A stretch of DNA of 64,000 bases from an uncultured Rhodospirillales bacterium (GTDB taxonomy: Bacteria; Pseudomonadota; Alphaproteobacteria; ATCC43930; CGMCC-115725), in NCBI GenBank assembly GCA_903822185.1, contig CAIJOA010000034.1, positions 1-64,000 of the forward strand, given 5' to 3'. A program made the position numbers and the translations under genes. Positions 3,320 through 26,773 of the stretch are shown here, piece after piece (positions within the stretch are counted from its first letter, which is position 1; each line of letters begins with the position of its first letter). The notes beneath the pieces are model-generated. The model searched no databases. It had not been told where the DNA came from and worked only from the letters and a program-made list of their open reading frames with translations.

Positions 3320-5242
3320 ATGCCTGATACACATAATCCGTCGCTCGACGTCCCGGCGCTCGACGCTGTTGTCGATCGCGCCGCCGCGGCGCTGATCGCC
3401 CAGCAACAACCCGACGGCCACTGGGTCTTCGAACTCGAGGCCGATGCGACGATCCCGGCCGAATTCATCCTGCTGCAGCATTATCTCGGCGAGATCGATG
3501 ATTCGTTACAGGGCGAGATCGCGAAATTCCTGCGCTCGCTGCAGGCCGACCATGGCGGCTGGCCGTTGTTTCGCGGTGGCGATCTCGATCTGAGTTGTAG
3601 CGTCAAAGCCTACTTTGCCCTCAAGGCAGCCGGTGACGATGTCGATGCACCGCATATGGTCCGGGCGCGGGAAGCGATCCTCGCCTGCGGCGGCGCGGCG
3701 CGCGCTAATGTTTTCACGCGAATTCAGCTTGCGCTGTTTGGTGAACTGGCTTGGCGCGGCGTGCCGGTGATGCCGGTCGAGATTATGCTGCTGCCGCGAT
3801 GGTTTCCTTTTCATCTGACCAAGATTTCCTATTGGTCGCGCACGGTCATCGTACCGCTGCTGGTGCTGATGACGCTAAAGCCTTGCGCGCGTAATCCGCG
3901 TGGCATCGGCGTCCGCGAACTATTCCTGCCCGGTACGGAAACTAAGCCGCCGAAGGCATCGGGATCGATTTGGGCATCGATCTTCAATGTCGTCGATGAT
4001 GTGTTGCGGGTCGTTGAGCCGGCCTTTCCGAAGAGCTTGCGCCGGCGCGCCGTCGATAAGGCGGTTGCCTTCGTCACCGAACGTCTCAACGGTGAAGACG
4101 GCCTCGGCGCGATCTATCCGGCGATCGCGAACAGCGTGATGATGTTCGATTGCCTCAAAGTTCCGGTCAGCGATCCGCGCGTCGTCACAGCCCGCGCTGC
4201 CGTGCGAAAGCTGTTGGTGCAAAAGCCGGGACGCACTTATTGCCAGCCTTGCCTCTCCCCGGTGTGGGACACGGGCCTTGCGGCCCATGCGTTGATGGAG
4301 GCGGGGGGCGATACCGCGATGGCGTCGGCTGAACGCGGTCTCGAATGGCTGGTCCCCTGTCAGGTCAATGATGTCGTCGGCGACTGGGCCGTGAAACGTC
4401 CGAACCTTCCGCCGGGCGGCTGGGCGTTCCAATACGCCAATCCGCATTATCCGGATCTCGATGATACGGCGATGGTCGCCTTGGCCTATGACCGCTTCGA
4501 CCGCGCGCGTTATCGCGGTGTTGTCGAACGCGCGACGAACTGGCTTGTCGGCATGCAGAGCCGCAACGGCGGCTGGGCAGCATTCGACGTCGATAACATG
4601 CACTACTATCTGAACTACATCCCGTTCGCCGATCATGGCGCTTTGCTCGATCCGCCGACCGCGGATGTGTCGGCACGTTGCGTCGGACTTTTCGGGCAAC
4701 TGGGCGGTTACGACAATGCGCGCACCACCGGCGTTGATTATCTTCGGCGCGAGCAGGAAAGCGACGGCTCGTGGTTCGGCCGTTGGGGGACGAATTACAT
4801 CTACGGCACTTGGTCCGTTTTGGTCGCGCTGAACGGCGCTGGTGTCGATAAGGCCGATCCGATGATCCGTCGCGCTGTGGCGTGGCTGTTGTCGAAGCAG
4901 CGACCGGACGGCGGTTGGGGCGAGGACGGTCGATCCTACTGGAAGCACCATCCGCGCGGCGAGGGAAAGGCCAGCACACCGTCGCAAACAGCCTGGGCGC
5001 TGTTGGCGCTCATGGCGGCGGGCGAAATGCGGAATGAAGCCGTTGCACGCGGCGTGAATTATCTCGTGACGACGCAGCAGGCACATGGCCTGTGGGATGA
5101 AGAAGACTTCACCGCGGTCGGTTTTCCACGCGTGTTCTATCTTCGTTATCACGGCTATCGCGCCTTCTTCCCGCTTTGGGCGGTGGCGCGTTATCGCAAT
5201 CTGTCGAGCAGCAAGCAGATCAATTATTCCTACGGGCTTTGA
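3320..5242 (+). CDS. shc: Squalene-hopene cyclase
   Basis: This 640-aa terpene cyclase has the length expected for the family. The catalytic DXDD motif appears as DLDD at residues 379-382, close to D374-D377 of the well-studied Alicyclobacillus enzyme. Several QW repeats are visible, including QQPDGHWVFE near the N-terminus, MQSRNGGWAAF in the middle and KQRPDGGWGED and QQAHGLW towards the C-terminus. The enzyme is a monotopic membrane protein that cyclises squalene to hopene and hopanol. It follows hpnE by 18 bases, and its TGA shares one base with the ATG of hpnG (TGATG), so translation is probably coupled. It is also called hpnF. Confidence 0.97.
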   Translation: MPDTHNPSLDVPALDAVVDRAAAALIAQQQPDGHWVFELEADATIPAEFILLQHYLGEIDDSLQGEIAKFLRSLQADHGGWPLFRGGDLDLSCSVKAYFALKAAGDDVDAPHMVRAREAILACGGAARANVFTRIQLALFGELAWRGVPVMPVEIMLLPRWFPFHLTKISYWSRTVIVPLLVLMTLKPCARNPRGIGVRELFLPGTETKPPKASGSIWASIFNVVDDVLRVVEPAFPKSLRRRAVDKAVAFVTERLNGEDGLGAIYPAIANSVMMFDCLKVPVSDPRVVTARAAVRKLLVQKPGRTYCQPCLSPVWDTGLAAHALMEAGGDTAMASAERGLEWLVPCQVNDVVGDWAVKRPNLPPGGWAFQYANPHYPDLDDTAMVALAYDRFDRARYRGVVERATNWLVGMQSRNGGWAAFDVDNMHYYLNYIPFADHGALLDPPTADVSARCVGLFGQLGGYDNARTTGVDYLRREQESDGSWFGRWGTNYIYGTWSVLVALNGAGVDKADPMIRRAVAWLLSKQRPDGGWGEDGRSYWKHHPRGEGKASTPSQTAWALLALMAAGEMRNEAVARGVNYLVTTQQAHGLWDEEDFTAVGFPRVFYLRYHGYRAFFPLWAVARYRNLSSSKQINYSYGL

Positions 5243-20501: not shown

Positions 20502-21243
20502 CATCGCTCTGACGGCAAAAAAGCGACTCGACGTTATTCTTGTCGAACGCGGCCTGGCGGAAACGCGCGCCAAGGCGCAGGCGTTGATTCTTGCCGGCAA
20601 GGTATGGAGCGGCGACCGCAAGCTCGACAAGGCGGGCACGTCTTTTCCCGACGATCAACAGATCGAGGTCAAATCCAAGGACCATCCGTGGGTATCGCGT
20701 GGTGGCATCAAGCTGGCGCATGCGCTCGATCATTTCGCGATTGATGTATCCGGCGTGGTGGCCCTCGATGTCGGCGCATCGACGGGCGGGTTCACCGATG
20801 TGTTGCTCACCAAGGGCGCGGCCAAAGTCTATGCCGTCGATGTGGGACATGGACAGTTAGCCTGGAAGCTACGTCAAGATTCTCGAGTCGCAGTGCTGGA
20901 ACGACAAAACGCACGTTATTTGACGCGTAAGGAAATTCCGGATGTACCCGATATCGTCGTTTGCGACGCGAGTTTCATCGGACTCGAGACGGTATTGCCC
21001 GCAGCGCTCACTTTGGCGGAATCTCCGGCGAAGCTCGTCGCGTTGATCAAGCCGCAATTCGAAGTCGGTCCTTCGCGGGTCGGCAAAGGCGGCGTCGTTC
21101 GCGACCCTGAACTACATCGTGAAGTATGCGATCGTATTACGGCATGGCTGACGACGATCGGCTGGAATGTCGTGGGCGTTGCCGAAAGTCCGATTCGTGG
21201 CCCCGAAGGCAATATCGAGTTTCTCGTCCATGCCACACGCTGA
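20455..21243 (+). CDS. tlyA: TlyA-family rRNA 2'-O-methyltransferase
   Basis: The protein has an N-terminal S4 RNA-binding domain ([21 protein letters not shown]) and an FtsJ-like SAM-dependent methyltransferase domain ([16 protein letters not shown]). TlyA methylates 16S and 23S rRNA; some homologues are called haemolysins. The start is uncertain: conserved sequence begins around 20509 with no nearby ATG, GTG or TTG. The closest standard in-frame start is GTG 20455, which lies 47 bases inside dxs and adds about twenty non-conserved residues; ATG 20425 is further still. A CTG (20509) or ATC (20503) start just after the dxs stop is possible. The 3' end overlaps the next gene by 14 bases. Confidence 0.85.
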
Positions 21244-22486
21244 ACCCATCACGTTGACGATTGATCGAGTCGGTGTTCGCGGCGATGGCATCGGATCGTG
21301 GCGCGGCCAATCGGTCTATGTTCCTTTTACCGCGCCGGGCGATGTCGTTCGTGTAAGCCTCGAAAGCAAACGCGGCCGAGGCCAAAGCGCGACTCTCGAT
21401 GAAATCGTTTCGCCGGGCGCTCGGATGGTTCCACCTTGCGCCCATTTCGGGACATGCGGCGGCTGCGCGCTGCAGCATCTCGATGAAACGGCCTACCTGG
21501 CGAGCAAGACGCAATGGCTTGAAGAAGCCTTGGTGCAGCATCGGGTCACGGCCGAATGTATCTTGCCAATTCAGCAACTACCGGCCGGCACGCGCCGCCG
21601 CGCGCGCTTCCAGATCACGGCGCAGCAGATCGGGTTTCATGCTCGTAGCAGCCATCGTCTGGTCAATCTGCGCGAATGCCATGTCCTCCATCCCGACCTG
21701 ATGGCGATCGTTCAGCCGCTGCGTGGGTTGGCGCGGACACTTCTCTCGTCGAAGCAAATCGGCGAGGCTACCGCGACGCTCAGCGCGAAGGGTGTCGATC
21801 TGTTGCTCGATCTGCCGGATGTCCCCGGAATTGAGGGACTCGAGGCGATGGCGCGTTTCGCGGACTCGCAAGATTTGGCCCGCCTCTCGTGGCGTCATGA
21901 CGGCGAGGTCATTCCCGTCGCGATACGGCGAAAGCCGCAAGTCGCGCTCGCGGGAGTCGCGGTCGATCTTCCGACCGACGCATTTCTTCAGGCCAGCCTC
22001 GACGCCGAAGCGGCGCTGACAAACGCCGTGATGGCGATGGGGGACGGCGCCAAGAACGTTGCCGATCTTTATGCCGGGCTGGGCACCTTCACTTTCGCGA
22101 TGGCGCAACAAGCCAAGGTACATGCCGTCGAAGCAGCCAGCGGCGCGGTGACAAGTCTCGTTCAGGCTGCATCCCGCGCAGGACTCGCCGGAACTGTAAC
22201 CGCGGAGAAAAGAGATCTCGCCGCGAGGCCGCTCGGCGTACACGAGCTTGTGGGGTTCGATACCGTGGTGTTCGATCCTCCCTATGCCGGCGCCAAGGAA
22301 CAATGCGAGGTACTGGCCGGAAGCCAAGTCCGAAAGCTGATCGCGGTTTCCTGCAATCCGACAAGTTTCGCGCGTGATGCCCGCATTTTGATTGATGGCG
22401 GCTATCATTTGGCCGAGGTCCGGCCGTTCGACGCGTTTGTCTGGTCGGCCAATCTCGAACTGGTTGCCCGGTTCGAGCGGCGTTGA
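21230..22486 (+). CDS. Class I SAM-dependent rRNA/tRNA uridine methyltransferase (RlmD/TrmA family)
   Basis: This 418-aa protein has a short N-terminal TRAM-like domain, iron-sulfur cysteines C70-x5-C76-x2-C79 (CAHFGTCGGC) with a later Cys in RECHV, a SAM-binding motif (ADLYAGLGTF), motif IV DPPYAG and the catalytic cysteine segment AVSCNPTSFARD. This is the RumA/RlmD type that makes 5-methyluridine in 23S rRNA. Which uridine is modified cannot be told. The ATG at 21230 overlaps the end of tlyA by 14 bases, making a dxs-tlyA-methyltransferase operon. Confidence 0.9.
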   Translation: MPHAEPITLTIDRVGVRGDGIGSWRGQSVYVPFTAPGDVVRVSLESKRGRGQSATLDEIVSPGARMVPPCAHFGTCGGCALQHLDETAYLASKTQWLEEALVQHRVTAECILPIQQLPAGTRRRARFQITAQQIGFHARSSHRLVNLRECHVLHPDLMAIVQPLRGLARTLLSSKQIGEATATLSAKGVDLLLDLPDVPGIEGLEAMARFADSQDLARLSWRHDGEVIPVAIRRKPQVALAGVAVDLPTDAFLQASLDAEAALTNAVMAMGDGAKNVADLYAGLGTFTFAMAQQAKVHAVEAASGAVTSLVQAASRAGLAGTVTAEKRDLAARPLGVHELVGFDTVVFDPPYAGAKEQCEVLAGSQVRKLIAVSCNPTSFARDARILIDGGYHLAEVRPFDAFVWSANLELVARFERR

Positions 22487-22548: not shown

Positions 22549-22962
22549 ATGGCCAAGATTCGTCACATCGCGATTTTCTCGGACGACACCGCCAATCTCG
22601 CCAAGTTCTATGCCGATGTCTTCGAGATGAAGATCAACGGCCAGAGCAACGAAGGCGCGTTCTGGATGACCGACGGTTACATGGACATCGCCATTCTGCC
22701 GCGCCGCAACGACATGGCGCCGGAAGGCGTCCATCATTTCGGCATTACGATTGAGCCCGAAGAGAAAGAGGGCGTCATGGCCCGCCTCAAGGAGCGTGGC
22801 CACGAGCGCATGACGCCGCCGCCGGGCCGTCCCTATGTCGAAGATGCGTTGAAGGATGCCGACGGCAACAAGTTCGATCTCTCGACCTCGCGCGTGAAGA
22901 AGGACGGCGAGAAGATCGTGATGAAGGACGAAGAGAAGAAGAAAGAAAAAGAGCTGGTCTAA
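22549..22962 (+). CDS. VOC (glyoxalase/dioxygenase fold) protein with Lys-rich tail
   Basis: This 137-aa protein begins with the vicinal-oxygen-chelate signature IRHIAIFSDDTANLAKFYADVF, split here into its helix-forming half and strand, and has metal-ligand-type residues in HHFGITIEP and a late Asp/Asn region (DADGNKFDLS). The last 25 residues are nearly all Lys, Glu, Asp and Val, an unusual charged tail not part of the VOC fold. Substrate unknown. The start at 22549 has GGAG about ten bases upstream. A strong hairpin follows the stop. Confidence 0.82.
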   Translation: MAKIRHIAIFSDDTANLAKFYADVFEMKINGQSNEGAFWMTDGYMDIAILPRRNDMAPEGVHHFGITIEPEEKEGVMARLKERGHERMTPPPGRPYVEDALKDADGNKFDLSTSRVKKDGEKIVMKDEEKKKEKELV

Positions 22963-22992: not shown

Positions 22993-23022
22993 AAAAAGCC
23001 GGGGTTTGATCCCCGGCTTTTT
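22993..23022. terminator. Bidirectional intrinsic terminator
   Basis: A perfect GCCGGGG / CCCCGGC stem extended by A-T pairs, with the loop TTTGAT, is flanked by AAAAA and TTTTT. It lies between the convergent VOC and MFS genes. Confidence 0.9.
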
Positions 23023-23039
23023 CGTCACGAGCGTCCGCG

Positions 23040-24419
23040 TTATTCGGCGGCGGTAACAGTTTCCAGCTTGGCGCGCGCTTCGATCGACGCGTTGCTGTAG
23101 CTGCGCTGATAGAGGCGGCCGAGGCCGATGCAGGCCAGCACCACGACCGCGTAAGGCGCGGCGAGGATATAAAGCAACTCGTTGAGCGGCAGCTTCGCCG
23201 AGAGCAGATAGCCGACGATGATCGGGCCGATGATCGAGGCGATACGGCCCATGCCCGAAGCCCAGCCGACGCCATTACTGCGCATGCGCGTCGGATAGAA
23301 CAGCCCGACTGTGCCGTTCAGTGACGAATGCGTGGCGGAGCAGAAGCCGTGCGCTGCGATTGCCGAGGCCATGATCAGCCAAACCGGAATGCCCGGCGTG
23401 CCGACCGTGACGAGTGCAACGATGGCGATGATCGCCGTGATGACATTCGCCATCGGGCCGATCTTGTCGAGCGGCCGCATGATGAAGATCGCGACGACGA
23501 TGCCGGCGATACCGGCATAGGAGAAGGTGAAGGATGCTTGCGTCGGCGTCAGCCCCGCAGTTTCAAGCACCACGGCAAGCCAGCTCGCGAAGGTGATGTA
23601 AGTCAGACCCTCGGCGAAATAGGCCGTCCACAACAGGGTTGTTGCGATCCATTGTTTACCTTTGAAGAGTTCGGGCAGGACGAGGCCTTTCACCTTTTCT
23701 TGCTGTTGCGCATAGAAACGGGTTTCAGGACCGACATTGCGTTCCGGCGATAGGCTCTGCGCACGGCGGCGCAGCACCGGCGATTCCGGTTTGTTCAACG
23801 CCAGCCACTGCAGCGATTCCGGCAGCATGAAAATCTGCACCACCGCAAGGCAGCCGCCAGCAATCGCGCCGGCAAAAAACACCGCTTGCCAGCCATAGGT
23901 CGGGATGAAGAAGGCTGCGACTTGGCCGATGCCCCAGGTGCCCGTGGGGAAACCGAACAGCGCGATCATGGCGAAGGTCGCGCGATAGCGTTTCGGCGCC
24001 GATTCTGCGAGCAACGCCAAGGTCGTCGGCATCACGCCGCCAAGCCCGATACCCGCGAGAAAGCGCAGATACATGACTTCGTTGATCGTGCTCGCCTGGG
24101 TGATGAGGAGGGCGGGGATGGCGTAGCAGATGCAAGACCAGATCGATCCGGCCTTGCGGCCCCAGCGATCGCCGACATAACCGAAGACCCAGCAGCCGAC
24201 CAAGATGCCGAAGAAGCCGGCGCCGATAACATGGCCCATCGCGCTTTTTTCGATGTGGAACGAGCGGATGATCGCCGGCGCGGCGACGTTCACCGTGCCC
24301 AGATCGAAACCGTCGATGAAAAGCGTCAGCGCGCTGAGCAACAGGATGGCGATATGCTGCCGGCCCAGTTTAGCGTTGCCAACAAATTCGGAAATTTCGA
24401 TCGCCTGCGGCGCGCTCAT
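23040..24419 (-). CDS. MFS transporter, aromatic-acid:proton symporter type
   Basis: This 459-aa protein has about twelve membrane segments, the MFS motif after helix 2 (GYVGDRWGRK) and a long central cytoplasmic loop rich in Arg, Pro and Ser. The pattern fits the AAHS (PcaK/MhpT-like) or sugar-symporter branches, so aromatic acids are a reasonable but unproved substrate class. The ATG at 24419 is preceded by GGGAGGA. It diverges from the two-module gene at 24555. No catabolic enzyme lies beside it. Confidence 0.85.
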   Translation of the reverse strand: MSAPQAIEISEFVGNAKLGRQHIAILLLSALTLFIDGFDLGTVNVAAPAIIRSFHIEKSAMGHVIGAGFFGILVGCWVFGYVGDRWGRKAGSIWSCICYAIPALLITQASTINEVMYLRFLAGIGLGGVMPTTLALLAESAPKRYRATFAMIALFGFPTGTWGIGQVAAFFIPTYGWQAVFFAGAIAGGCLAVVQIFMLPESLQWLALNKPESPVLRRRAQSLSPERNVGPETRFYAQQQEKVKGLVLPELFKGKQWIATTLLWTAYFAEGLTYITFASWLAVVLETAGLTPTQASFTFSYAGIAGIVVAIFIMRPLDKIGPMANVITAIIAIVALVTVGTPGIPVWLIMASAIAAHGFCSATHSSLNGTVGLFYPTRMRSNGVGWASGMGRIASIIGPIIVGYLLSAKLPLNELLYILAAPYAVVVLACIGLGRLYQRSYSNASIEARAKLETVTAAE

Positions 24420-24554
24420 TTAATCCTCCCTCGGGACCCCAGATTTCCCGCATCGTCGTGGGAATTCGGGCCGCCGTCAATCGCTCGGACCCGGCTTGGC
24501 GCGGGAAACCGTCTTATACTACAATCGCCCAACAACGACGTTGCGGAGGAAAAA

Positions 24555-25001
24555 ATGGCGCAAGAAAACACGCTGGCGGAATATCAAGGTCCGATCGAAT
24601 TGGGCATGGTGTTCGACTTGGAGCCCGGCAAGAAACACGTCTATGAGCGCCTGACCGTCACCCGCAAGGAAGGTAATAACATCTGGTGTTACGGCCGCGC
24701 AGGCGAGACCTATCACGAAGAATCTGCTTTTCGCAAACGTGTGGTTTTCGTCTCGCCGACGCCGATTGTGAAAAAGCGCCCGGTGCCAGTGCCGCTGAAC
24801 GGCCGGTACGAAGGACCCATCGAACTCGGCATGAAGTTCGATCTCGAGCCTGCCAAAAAGCACGTCTATGAACGCCTGACGGTCACGCGTAAGGAAGGCA
24901 ATAATATCTGGTGTTACGGCCGGGCCGGTGAGACGTATCACGAGGAAAGTATTTTCCGCGACCGCGTCGCCGTCGTGCCGCCGGAACTGGCGAAGGCCTA
25001 A
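24555..25001 (+). CDS. Unrecognised 148-aa protein made of two near-identical 59-residue modules
   Basis: The ATG at 24555 has GGAGGA four bases upstream. Residues 10-68 and 85-143 are a tandem duplication at a 75-residue spacing, identical at 51 of 59 positions by hand alignment. Each module carries DLEP, KKHVYERLTVTRKEGNN, IWCYGRAGETYHEES and FR-RV. A 16-residue Lys/Pro/Val linker joins them. About half of the conserved residues (25 of 51) use different codons in the two copies, so the duplication is not recent and both modules look strongly conserved. There is no signal peptide or membrane segment. I do not recognise the family. The single Cys per module (C45, C120) and the Trp-Cys-Tyr core could bind a ligand or metal, but nothing proves this. 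Confidence 0.85.
   Translation: MAQENTLAEYQGPIELGMVFDLEPGKKHVYERLTVTRKEGNNIWCYGRAGETYHEESAFRKRVVFVSPTPIVKKRPVPVPLNGRYEGPIELGMKFDLEPAKKHVYERLTVTRKEGNNIWCYGRAGETYHEESIFRDRVAVVPPELAKA
24582..24758 (+). repeat. Module 1 of the tandem protein repeat
   Basis: This stretch encodes residues 10-68 of the two-module protein. It pairs with 24807-24983, 225 bases downstream. The protein identity is much higher than synonymous-site identity. Confidence 0.9.
24807..24983 (+). repeat. Module 2 of the tandem protein repeat
   Basis: This stretch encodes residues 85-143. It differs from module 1 at eight residues: Q/E, V/K, G/A, A/I, K/D, V/A, F/V and S/P in order. Confidence 0.9.
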
Positions 25002-25015
25002 CCAAAGGCCATCGG

Positions 25016-26773
25016 CTACTGCGCGTCGAAAGACTTCATCGTTAGGGAGCCGGGCGGGGCAATCATCAGCGCGATGCGTTGAAGAGCGACCCGCCAGAGC
25101 GTCAAAAGCTGCGTGGGCAGGCTTGCCTGTGCTTCGTCATCATCGCCTAAGACCCTCGATGCGATGGCGCGAATTCCGGATTTTGCCGGCGGATAAAGTT
25201 TCAAGGTCACATCATCACCGGCGGCGATGCCTGCAACTTGCTTCGTCACATCCAGTGCGGTCTTAAAGCCGCCCAACGTATCGACCAACCCGCGCGATTG
25301 CGCGTCGGCGCCGCTCCACACGCGGCCCTTGGCGACAGCTTCGACGGCCTCGGGCGTGAGCTTGCGGCCGTCGGCGACACGCTGCTTGAATCCGCCATAG
25401 ATATCGTCGAGCACGGCATTCAGACGTTCGCGTTCGACAGGCGAGAACCCATCCATCATGCCGAACATGCCGGCATTGGCCCCGGCTTGAATTGAATCGT
25501 AATTGCCGCCGAACTTTTTCAGCAATCCGCCGACAGCGATCTTGCCGGCAACAACGCCGATCGATCCCGTAAAAGTTGCTGGTTCGGCGACGATCTTGTC
25601 GGCAGGGGCGGCGATATAGTATCCGCCCGATCCCGCCACATCGCCCATGCTGACGATGACAGGCTTGCCCGCTTTATGTGCGCGTTGGACTGCGGCCCAA
25701 ATGGTTTCCGATGCCGTGGCGGAGCCACCAGGGCTATCGACGCGGAAGAGGATTGCCTTCACCGCTTTGTCTTCCTGCGCCATACGGAAAGCGCGGACCA
25801 ATTCGTCGGTGTTCGCGCCGCCACTGCCGGTCAGCGGATTGGCTTCGCCGCCAGTGCCGCGCGAAATCATGCCGCTGGCATAGATCAGCGCGATGGTCGG
25901 GCCGCTCTTATGCGCTTCGCCGACATCGTCGTGATAACGCTTCAGGCTGGTCAGATGCGGGCTTGCGCCGAAAGAGGCGACGGCATCCTCGCGCATACCG
26001 ATATGATCGATCAGATGTGCCTTTAAAGCGTCGTTGGTCAGGACCGGCGCGTGATCGATCAGCGTCTTCAACTGAGCCGGATCAATCTTGCGGTCCTTGG
26101 CGACGCCATCGACGATCTGGCCGTAGATTGAATCGACCAGTGCTTGAAGCTCCTCACGTTCCGGCCCGGTCATCCCGGTTTCGGTCATCGTGTTTTCGGC
26201 GTCTTTGAATTCCTCGCGGTGCTCGAAATCCGGCACGATGCCCAGCTTGTCGAGGGTGCCACGGAAATACGGCAACTCGGCGCGCAACCCGACCAGGCCG
26301 ACAAGGCCCATCGGCTGCAACCAGATTTCGTCGAACGCCGCCGCGAGATAATAGCTGCGGGTGCCCGAGCTTAATTCGCCAAAGGTATCGGTATAAGCGA
26401 CAGCGCGCTTTCCCTTGGCGCGGAAGCCGGCAATGGCATCGCGCAATTCCTGAATCTGGGCAATGCCGGCGCTGTTATCACCGATCCGGGCGACGATACC
26501 TTTGATGCGTGGATCGTCGCCGGCACGCTCGATCGTGTTGAGTGTTTGAATCAGCGACATCGAGCTGGCAAAGAGAAGTTGCTGCACGCCGGTATCGGGC
26601 GCTGCATCGGTCAGCGCGCGGCTAAGATCGATGGTCAGGATCGTATTATCGGCCAGCTTCGGTTCGCGCGTATGTGAGAAAATCCAGAGGGCGGCGCCAC
26701 CACAAACCAACAGGAAAACCAGAACGCCGATCGTCGCGAAGAAATTTCGGATGAACCGGCCAATCCTGCGCAT
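25016..26773 (-). CDS. sppA: Signal peptide peptidase SppA, long (67K) type
   Basis: This 585-aa protein has one N-terminal membrane anchor (residues about 7-28) and two ClpP-like crotonase domains, as in the long SppA class. The second half contains the nucleophile region GDVAGSGGYYIAAPADKI and the preceding substrate loop VDSPGGSATAS. The general-base Lys is expected in the first half, in the region GKRAVAYTDTFG. The enzyme degrades released signal peptides in the inner membrane. It follows aroC by five bases on the minus strand and is probably the last gene of the dnaJ-like/fabI/aroC/sppA run. Confidence 0.92.
   Translation of the reverse strand: MRRIGRFIRNFFATIGVLVFLLVCGGAALWIFSHTREPKLADNTILTIDLSRALTDAAPDTGVQQLLFASSMSLIQTLNTIERAGDDPRIKGIVARIGDNSAGIAQIQELRDAIAGFRAKGKRAVAYTDTFGELSSGTRSYYLAAAFDEIWLQPMGLVGLVGLRAELPYFRGTLDKLGIVPDFEHREEFKDAENTMTETGMTGPEREELQALVDSIYGQIVDGVAKDRKIDPAQLKTLIDHAPVLTNDALKAHLIDHIGMREDAVASFGASPHLTSLKRYHDDVGEAHKSGPTIALIYASGMISRGTGGEANPLTGSGGANTDELVRAFRMAQEDKAVKAILFRVDSPGGSATASETIWAAVQRAHKAGKPVIVSMGDVAGSGGYYIAAPADKIVAEPATFTGSIGVVAGKIAVGGLLKKFGGNYDSIQAGANAGMFGMMDGFSPVERERLNAVLDDIYGGFKQRVADGRKLTPEAVEAVAKGRVWSGADAQSRGLVDTLGGFKTALDVTKQVAGIAAGDDVTLKLYPPAKSGIRAIASRVLGDDDEAQASLPTQLLTLWRVALQRIALMIAPPGSLTMKSFDAQ

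Follow-up and report, generated by a model that had tools for sequence, protein, structure and literature searches.

An orphan gene of two tandem, near-identical modules in an uncultured alphaproteobacterial genus

Why should two neighbouring modules of one small protein be almost the same in amino acid sequence and differ in their codons? The question is raised by an orphan gene at 24555..25001 (+ strand) of the window, by which we mean the whole 64,000-nucleotide stretch of Rhodospirillales DNA that was analysed. The gene starts with ATG 24555, has 148 codons (24555-24998) and ends with a stop at 24999-25001. The original prediction described two tandem 59-residue modules, identical at 51 residues, and this description was exact. 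Module 1 covers residues 10-68 (24582..24758, + strand) and module 2 residues 85-143 (24807..24983, + strand); alignment with the orthologue described below places a proline-rich linker at residues 69-84 (24759..24806, + strand). A BLASTP comparison of one module with the other gave E = 3e-39, so that their likeness is not due to chance. At the DNA level 137 of 177 positions are identical, and the 40 differences fall 9, 5 and 26 times on codon positions 1, 2 and 3, as in a constrained coding frame. Among the 51 identical residues, 26 use the same codon and 25 a different one, as had been predicted for about half of them.

Gene, expression signals and orthologue

The reading frame stays open far 5' of ATG 24555. 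We nevertheless place the start there, because a Shine-Dalgarno sequence, GGAGG (24545..24549, + strand, read directly), lies 5 bases 5' of this ATG, and because the orthologue starts at the same aligned residue. A motif scan of 721 bases around the gene gave two promoter-like sites against 0.2 expected. One is a sigma-70-like pair, TTGGCG-18-TACAAT (24496..24525, + strand); it has a counterpart 5' of the orthologue, TTGGCA-18-TAGAAT, aligned to it and with the spacing of 18 counted by eye. The other, at 24876, is inside the gene and was set aside, as was a single terminator-like site, against 1.1 expected. Rfam at gathering cut-offs gave no match in window positions 23000-26000.

In G012, the only other genome of the genus in the sample, an orthologue of 147 amino acids and 58% identity occupies the same place (4746-5186 of its contig, L007). 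Like the window protein, it is laid out as two modules, and its linker is partly conserved. Because this two-module orthologue sits at the same place, the gene is real. Neither copy contains a stop.

No characterised family matched the protein credibly in Pfam, NCBIfam, PHROG, PADLOC or PDB, in line with the earlier statement that the family was not recognised. With the whole protein, Pfam returned only DUF7334 and DUF7017, both below cut-off, and PHROG gave three matches at E 0.006-0.007 among the 8 listed. NCBIfam model NF040775, a Nei2/Fpg zinc-finger stretch with a short likeness around WCYGRAGE, reached E 0.00087 (18.8 bits, where the cut-off is 400). With single modules, Pfam gave no family at E 10, SH3-type families included, and in NCBIfam Nei2 and AmcA alone matched, both weakly. 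NF040775 fell to E 0.18 on module 2 and had no match on module 1; phrog_24381 fell to E 0.26, and for two of the modules no PHROG match was listed at E 1. Because single modules lower these scores, the weak whole-protein matches appear to be inflated by the repeat. Three sequence searches of PDB gave best E values of 0.71, 0.94 and 0.25, all of them weak, and PADLOC gave no match.

Age of the duplication and near-identity of the modules

In order to estimate how long the modules have been separate, same-codon counts were compared with independent draws based on codon usage in 48 long window ORFs, picked mechanically, over 58 aligned positions and with Met and Trp excluded; G012 usage rests on 12 ORFs only. 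The window modules share 23 of 48 codons, against 22.0 expected at random (P = 0.43). Codon matching no better than random indicates that the duplication is old and that both copies are constrained, and it rules out a recent duplication as the source of the near-identity. Nei-Gojobori (NG86) estimates, which have large errors over 58 codons, were dN 0.12 and dS 1.53 for the two window modules. The earlier proposal of an old duplication under strong selection on both copies was thus borne out, also by the comparison of synonymous and nonsynonymous rates that it had put forward as a check. The corresponding dN and dS values were 0.45 and 0.75 between the two orthologue modules, 0.45 and 1.86 between the first modules of the two species, and 0.29 and 0.87 between the second modules.

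Expressed as a codon memory f (0 for random, 1 for unchanged), the window module pair has f = 0.04. Between the window and G012, eight neighbouring genes range from 0.17 (pdxH) to 0.46 (fabI), and the orphan itself has 0.25. Since f of the module pair is below that of these neighbours, the DNA-level separation of the window modules is about as old as the species split, or older. Tail probabilities for the pair are 0.14 at f = 0.20, 0.071 at f = 0.25 and 0.031 at f = 0.30, so neither the lowest neighbour value (0.17) nor that of the orphan itself (0.25) is rejected at the 5% level.

The near-identity holds in the window's lineage, not in general: over the same span the window modules agree at 50 of 58 positions and the orthologue's at 30 of 58. 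In all four modules 25 of the 58 positions are invariant, many of them with charged or with aromatic side chains (K, H, Y, E, R, W). The orthologue pair shows the opposite combination, f = 0.50 yet 30/58 protein identity, where the window pair has f = 0.04 and 50/58. The two window modules alone share a residue at 13 sites, 12 of them within residues 22-57 and the other at 15; orthologue-type sharing occurs at five sites (11, 19, 61, 65 and 67), none inside residues 22-57. Clustering this strong arose in a fraction 0.0038 of 20000 shuffles.

Such clustering is the pattern that gene conversion of the core between the window modules, at about the time of the species split, would leave, and the near-identity could then be the trace of this event and not the sign of a shared partner. 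We regard this explanation as rather doubtful. Codon sharing is at the random level for the whole modules and also in the core (18 of 34 against 15.5), and f of the window pair is below the point values of all eight neighbouring orthologue pairs, so that a conversion would not be recent; after an old conversion, purifying selection would still be required to keep the core identical. Two histories fit the data: the modules were converted near the species split, or the ancestral modules already had similar cores and diverged in G012. Under both, the module core has long been kept identical in the window's lineage.

Distribution and gene neighbourhood

Among the 39 genomes of the family, at E 0.001, only the window's genome, which the protein matches once, and G012 gave matches; the other 37 were without. 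Four further genomes of the order (43 in total), searched with the protein query only, gave none. A four-row profile was run on the family's 39 genomes and on wider samples of the class (385 genomes) and the phylum (398 genomes), the class and phylum searches being done at E 0.01, with only part of the initial candidates scored in many genomes.

The class sample gave one match outside the window's genome, L005 (E 0.00186). Compared by tblastn with this 3.1-kb locus alone, the window protein scored 36 bits at 38% identity (E 4e-7; module 2, E 9e-6). The match contains two stops and is antisense to a long frame that we take to be htpG-like, and was judged to be chance among hundreds of genomes searched. 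The phylum sample also gave a single match, L047 (E 0.007); it shares the strand of a presumably TldD-like ORF but is in a different frame, and was rejected as a relative. In the family at E 1, 8 of 39 genomes matched, six of them outside the genus with best E values from 0.0285 to 0.917; the best of the six (L039, E 0.0285), the one inspected, is inside a frame that we assume to be nucleoside-phosphorylase-like, and was likewise rejected. With the orthologue as query against 60 relatives at E 0.1, six matches were obtained, namely G012 itself and five at E 0.033-0.099. Among these five, the L066 match has two stops, G022 gave a further match, and L065, L067 and L068 were judged to be chance on a partial view of the alignments. 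Run against the frames of 29 sppA loci (L009-L037), the profile found the orthologue and then, among the matches listed, nothing better than E 8.8.

Viral contigs, phages and a first genome-contig scan yielded no relative, and short-peptide scans of a genome collection of 84,980 species found only the orthologue's contig. The one plasmid match (E 0.3) is within an IS3 transposase and was discarded. The contig, viral and plasmid scans used short peptides or a single protein as query, and such queries may overlook distant relatives. Within the reach of these tools, the orphan is a genus-level gene of two related species. This agrees, within the searched range, with one half of the outcome named in advance as damaging to the original prediction, that only close relatives carry the gene; the other half, accumulation of stops, is contradicted by the two stop-free copies. 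In PMC11773610 a Umea3 bin, whose site is in Sweden, is listed with genomes of stratified lakes and ponds, recovered from their anoxic water.

Gene order is the same in the window's genome and in G012: dxs, tlyA, rlmD-like, VOC, MFS (reverse), orphan, sppA (reverse), aroC, fabI, dnaJ, pdxH. The VOC (glyoxalase-like) gene is at 22549..22962 (+ strand), and the MFS gene, divergent to the orphan and resembling aromatic acid/H+ symporters, at 23040..24419 (- strand). According to neighbour annotation and locus comparison, sppA (25016..26773, - strand), convergent to the orphan, forms the edge of the conserved backbone. The MFS gene scores 269 bits against TIGR00895 (aromatic acid/H+ symporters), below the cut-off of 418.55. 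The RlmD-like methyltransferase (window 21215-22483) reaches neither of the two NCBIfam cut-offs for RlmD (212.6 against 458 and 161.7 against 183.55).

The sppA gene is present in 35 of the 39 family genomes, and its loci were compared for 30, G000 and G012 among them. In three genomes of one other genus (G035, G036 and G033; loci L013, L019 and L021), the rlmD-like match is 18-21 bases from the sppA match, with no block between. The other 25 loci have no gene of the set past the sppA end, four of them having less than 700 bases of flank. Because those three genomes have rlmD-like directly against sppA, VOC, MFS and orphan together are, on locus comparison, an extra block in the window's genus at a boundary that is tight in one other genus. 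Either gain in the window's genus or loss elsewhere would produce it.

At E 1e-30 the MFS protein matched 14 places in the window's genome, 11 in G012 and 0 to 11 in each of the other 37 family genomes, counts that are lower bounds where only part of the candidates was scored. This is perhaps an expansion of aromatic-acid-type transporters common to a few relatives.

Predicted fold and possible roles

Structure prediction of one and of two modules had been proposed as a check. The single-module model, built from four rows, had a mean pLDDT of 67 and a pTM of 0.49, with strands at 8-12, 22-31, 34-39 and 42-47, a helix at 48-54 and a strand at 55-57, which is an SH3-like strand order. The full-length model (two rows) was poor, with a pLDDT of 47, both modules showing the same strand-strand-strand-helix run. 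A Foldseek search with the module model gave a best E of 0.084 and no match at or below 0.001; SH3, Tudor and myosin SH3-like barrels were frequent among the 50 matches listed (E 0.08-0.4). With VIA-align, Z reached at most 6.0, in matches to the PCAT1 transporter and to Spindlin Tudor barrels, a Z below 8 possibly reflecting a common arrangement only. In a fold search against viral models, most matches were to proteins without a name or characterisation, none better than E 0.014. Five predicted strands, a short helix before the last and a length of about 60 residues are as in SH3-like and other small beta-barrels (SH3, Tudor/Spindlin, myosin N-terminal). In contrast to the families of SH3-like barrels, single modules have no Pfam match at E 10, and the fold scores are weak. 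On the model, the module is somewhat more probably an SH3-like barrel than another fold.

The reading that we tentatively prefer, with less than even confidence, is that of a genus-restricted two-barrel protein whose modules bind the same partner, a bivalent adaptor. An intragenic duplication made the two modules, most simply before the split of the two species. From its own promoter-like site, the gene would express a 17-kDa protein, taken as soluble, consisting of two tandem small beta-barrels with SH3-like strand order and a proline-rich linker. In the window's lineage the protein sequences of the modules have been held nearly the same while their codons became independent. Modules held alike with independent codons would most simply mean that both barrels bind the same partner, and the protein would then act as a bivalent adaptor. 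Our guess is that this partner is a protein or a peptide, more likely than a nucleic acid or a metal. The diverged modules of the orthologue count against a shared partner, module identity not being needed there.

Among the alternatives, a regulator or accessory of the divergent aromatic-acid-type MFS transporter adjoining the orphan in both genomes seems unlikely to us. VOC, MFS and orphan do stand side by side in each of the two genomes of the genus, at the boundary where three genomes of another genus have rlmD against sppA. This linkage, however, rests on two genomes, neighbourhood is by itself weak evidence, and the transporter matches 14 places in the window's genome against one for the orphan. 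A little less probable still is a nucleic-acid-binding double small barrel, KOW- or Tudor-like in use, acting for example on rRNA or mRNA. RNA or DNA binding is common among SH3-like barrels, the window protein is slightly basic (23 K+R, 21 D+E, pI 8.5), and the rRNA methyltransferase genes tlyA and rlmD-like are near. Those genes, however, belong to the conserved backbone and the orphan to the extra block with MFS and VOC, and the orthologue is neutral (23 and 23, pI 6.9); a charge so nearly balanced speaks slightly against a general binder of nucleic acids.

That the protein is metal- or redox-active through the single Cys of each module is very improbable. The window copy does have one Cys per module, which had been taken as a functional feature, but the orthologue has no Cys and carries Ala at both aligned positions, so that conserved metal binding by Cys is not supported and a cysteine-based metal-binding role is, from these alignments, unlikely. 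Neither Pfam nor NCBIfam gave a family above its own cut-off, zinc-binding families included. The zinc finger of Nei2/Fpg glycosylases has four zinc-binding cysteines, unlike the modules of either species.

Apart from one feature, the gene simply adds to the orphan genes known from uncultured alphaproteobacteria, here of a single genus. This feature, the most interesting of the window protein, is that it breaks a rule on tandem domains in the absence of high DNA identity. According to extracts of PMC8201768, adjacent domains in large multidomain proteins are usually less than 50% identical, and extracts of PMC4660218 likewise describe neighbouring homologous tandem domains as divergent in sequence, probably against misfolding. 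Such divergence is thought to limit long-lived misfolding (both sources, in part); transient misfolding is described at any identity, but as longer-lived between identical neighbours (PMC4660218, in part). Periscope proteins, which are surface proteins of high-identity tandem domains, break this rule with repeats that are highly similar in DNA and variable in number (PMC8201768, in part). Like them, the window modules are far above the usual 50%; unlike them, as these extracts describe them, the window modules have 137/177 DNA identity and share codons no more than expected at random. Two modules were counted in both of the two genomes. No surface or stalk feature and no signal peptide was seen by eye in the orphan protein.

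That the two modules found a new, lineage-born family of small barrels, in which adjacent domains are held the same in protein while codons are random, opposite to Periscope, is again an unlikely reading. If true, the neighbour-divergence rule would be broken in the opposite way to Periscope, with fixed copy number and little DNA homology. A natural two-domain protein of 86% identity with independent codons would make a compact and easily made test case for the misfolding rule, and the sister protein, in which roughly half of the residues are the same in both domains, would be its companion.

The linker motif PIVKxRPVxP is common to the window protein and the orthologue, provided that the alignment gaps are placed correctly, and is thus kept in two species. 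Near SH3-like domains, a proline-rich stretch could serve as an internal ligand; the linker itself could be either a ligand or a spacer.
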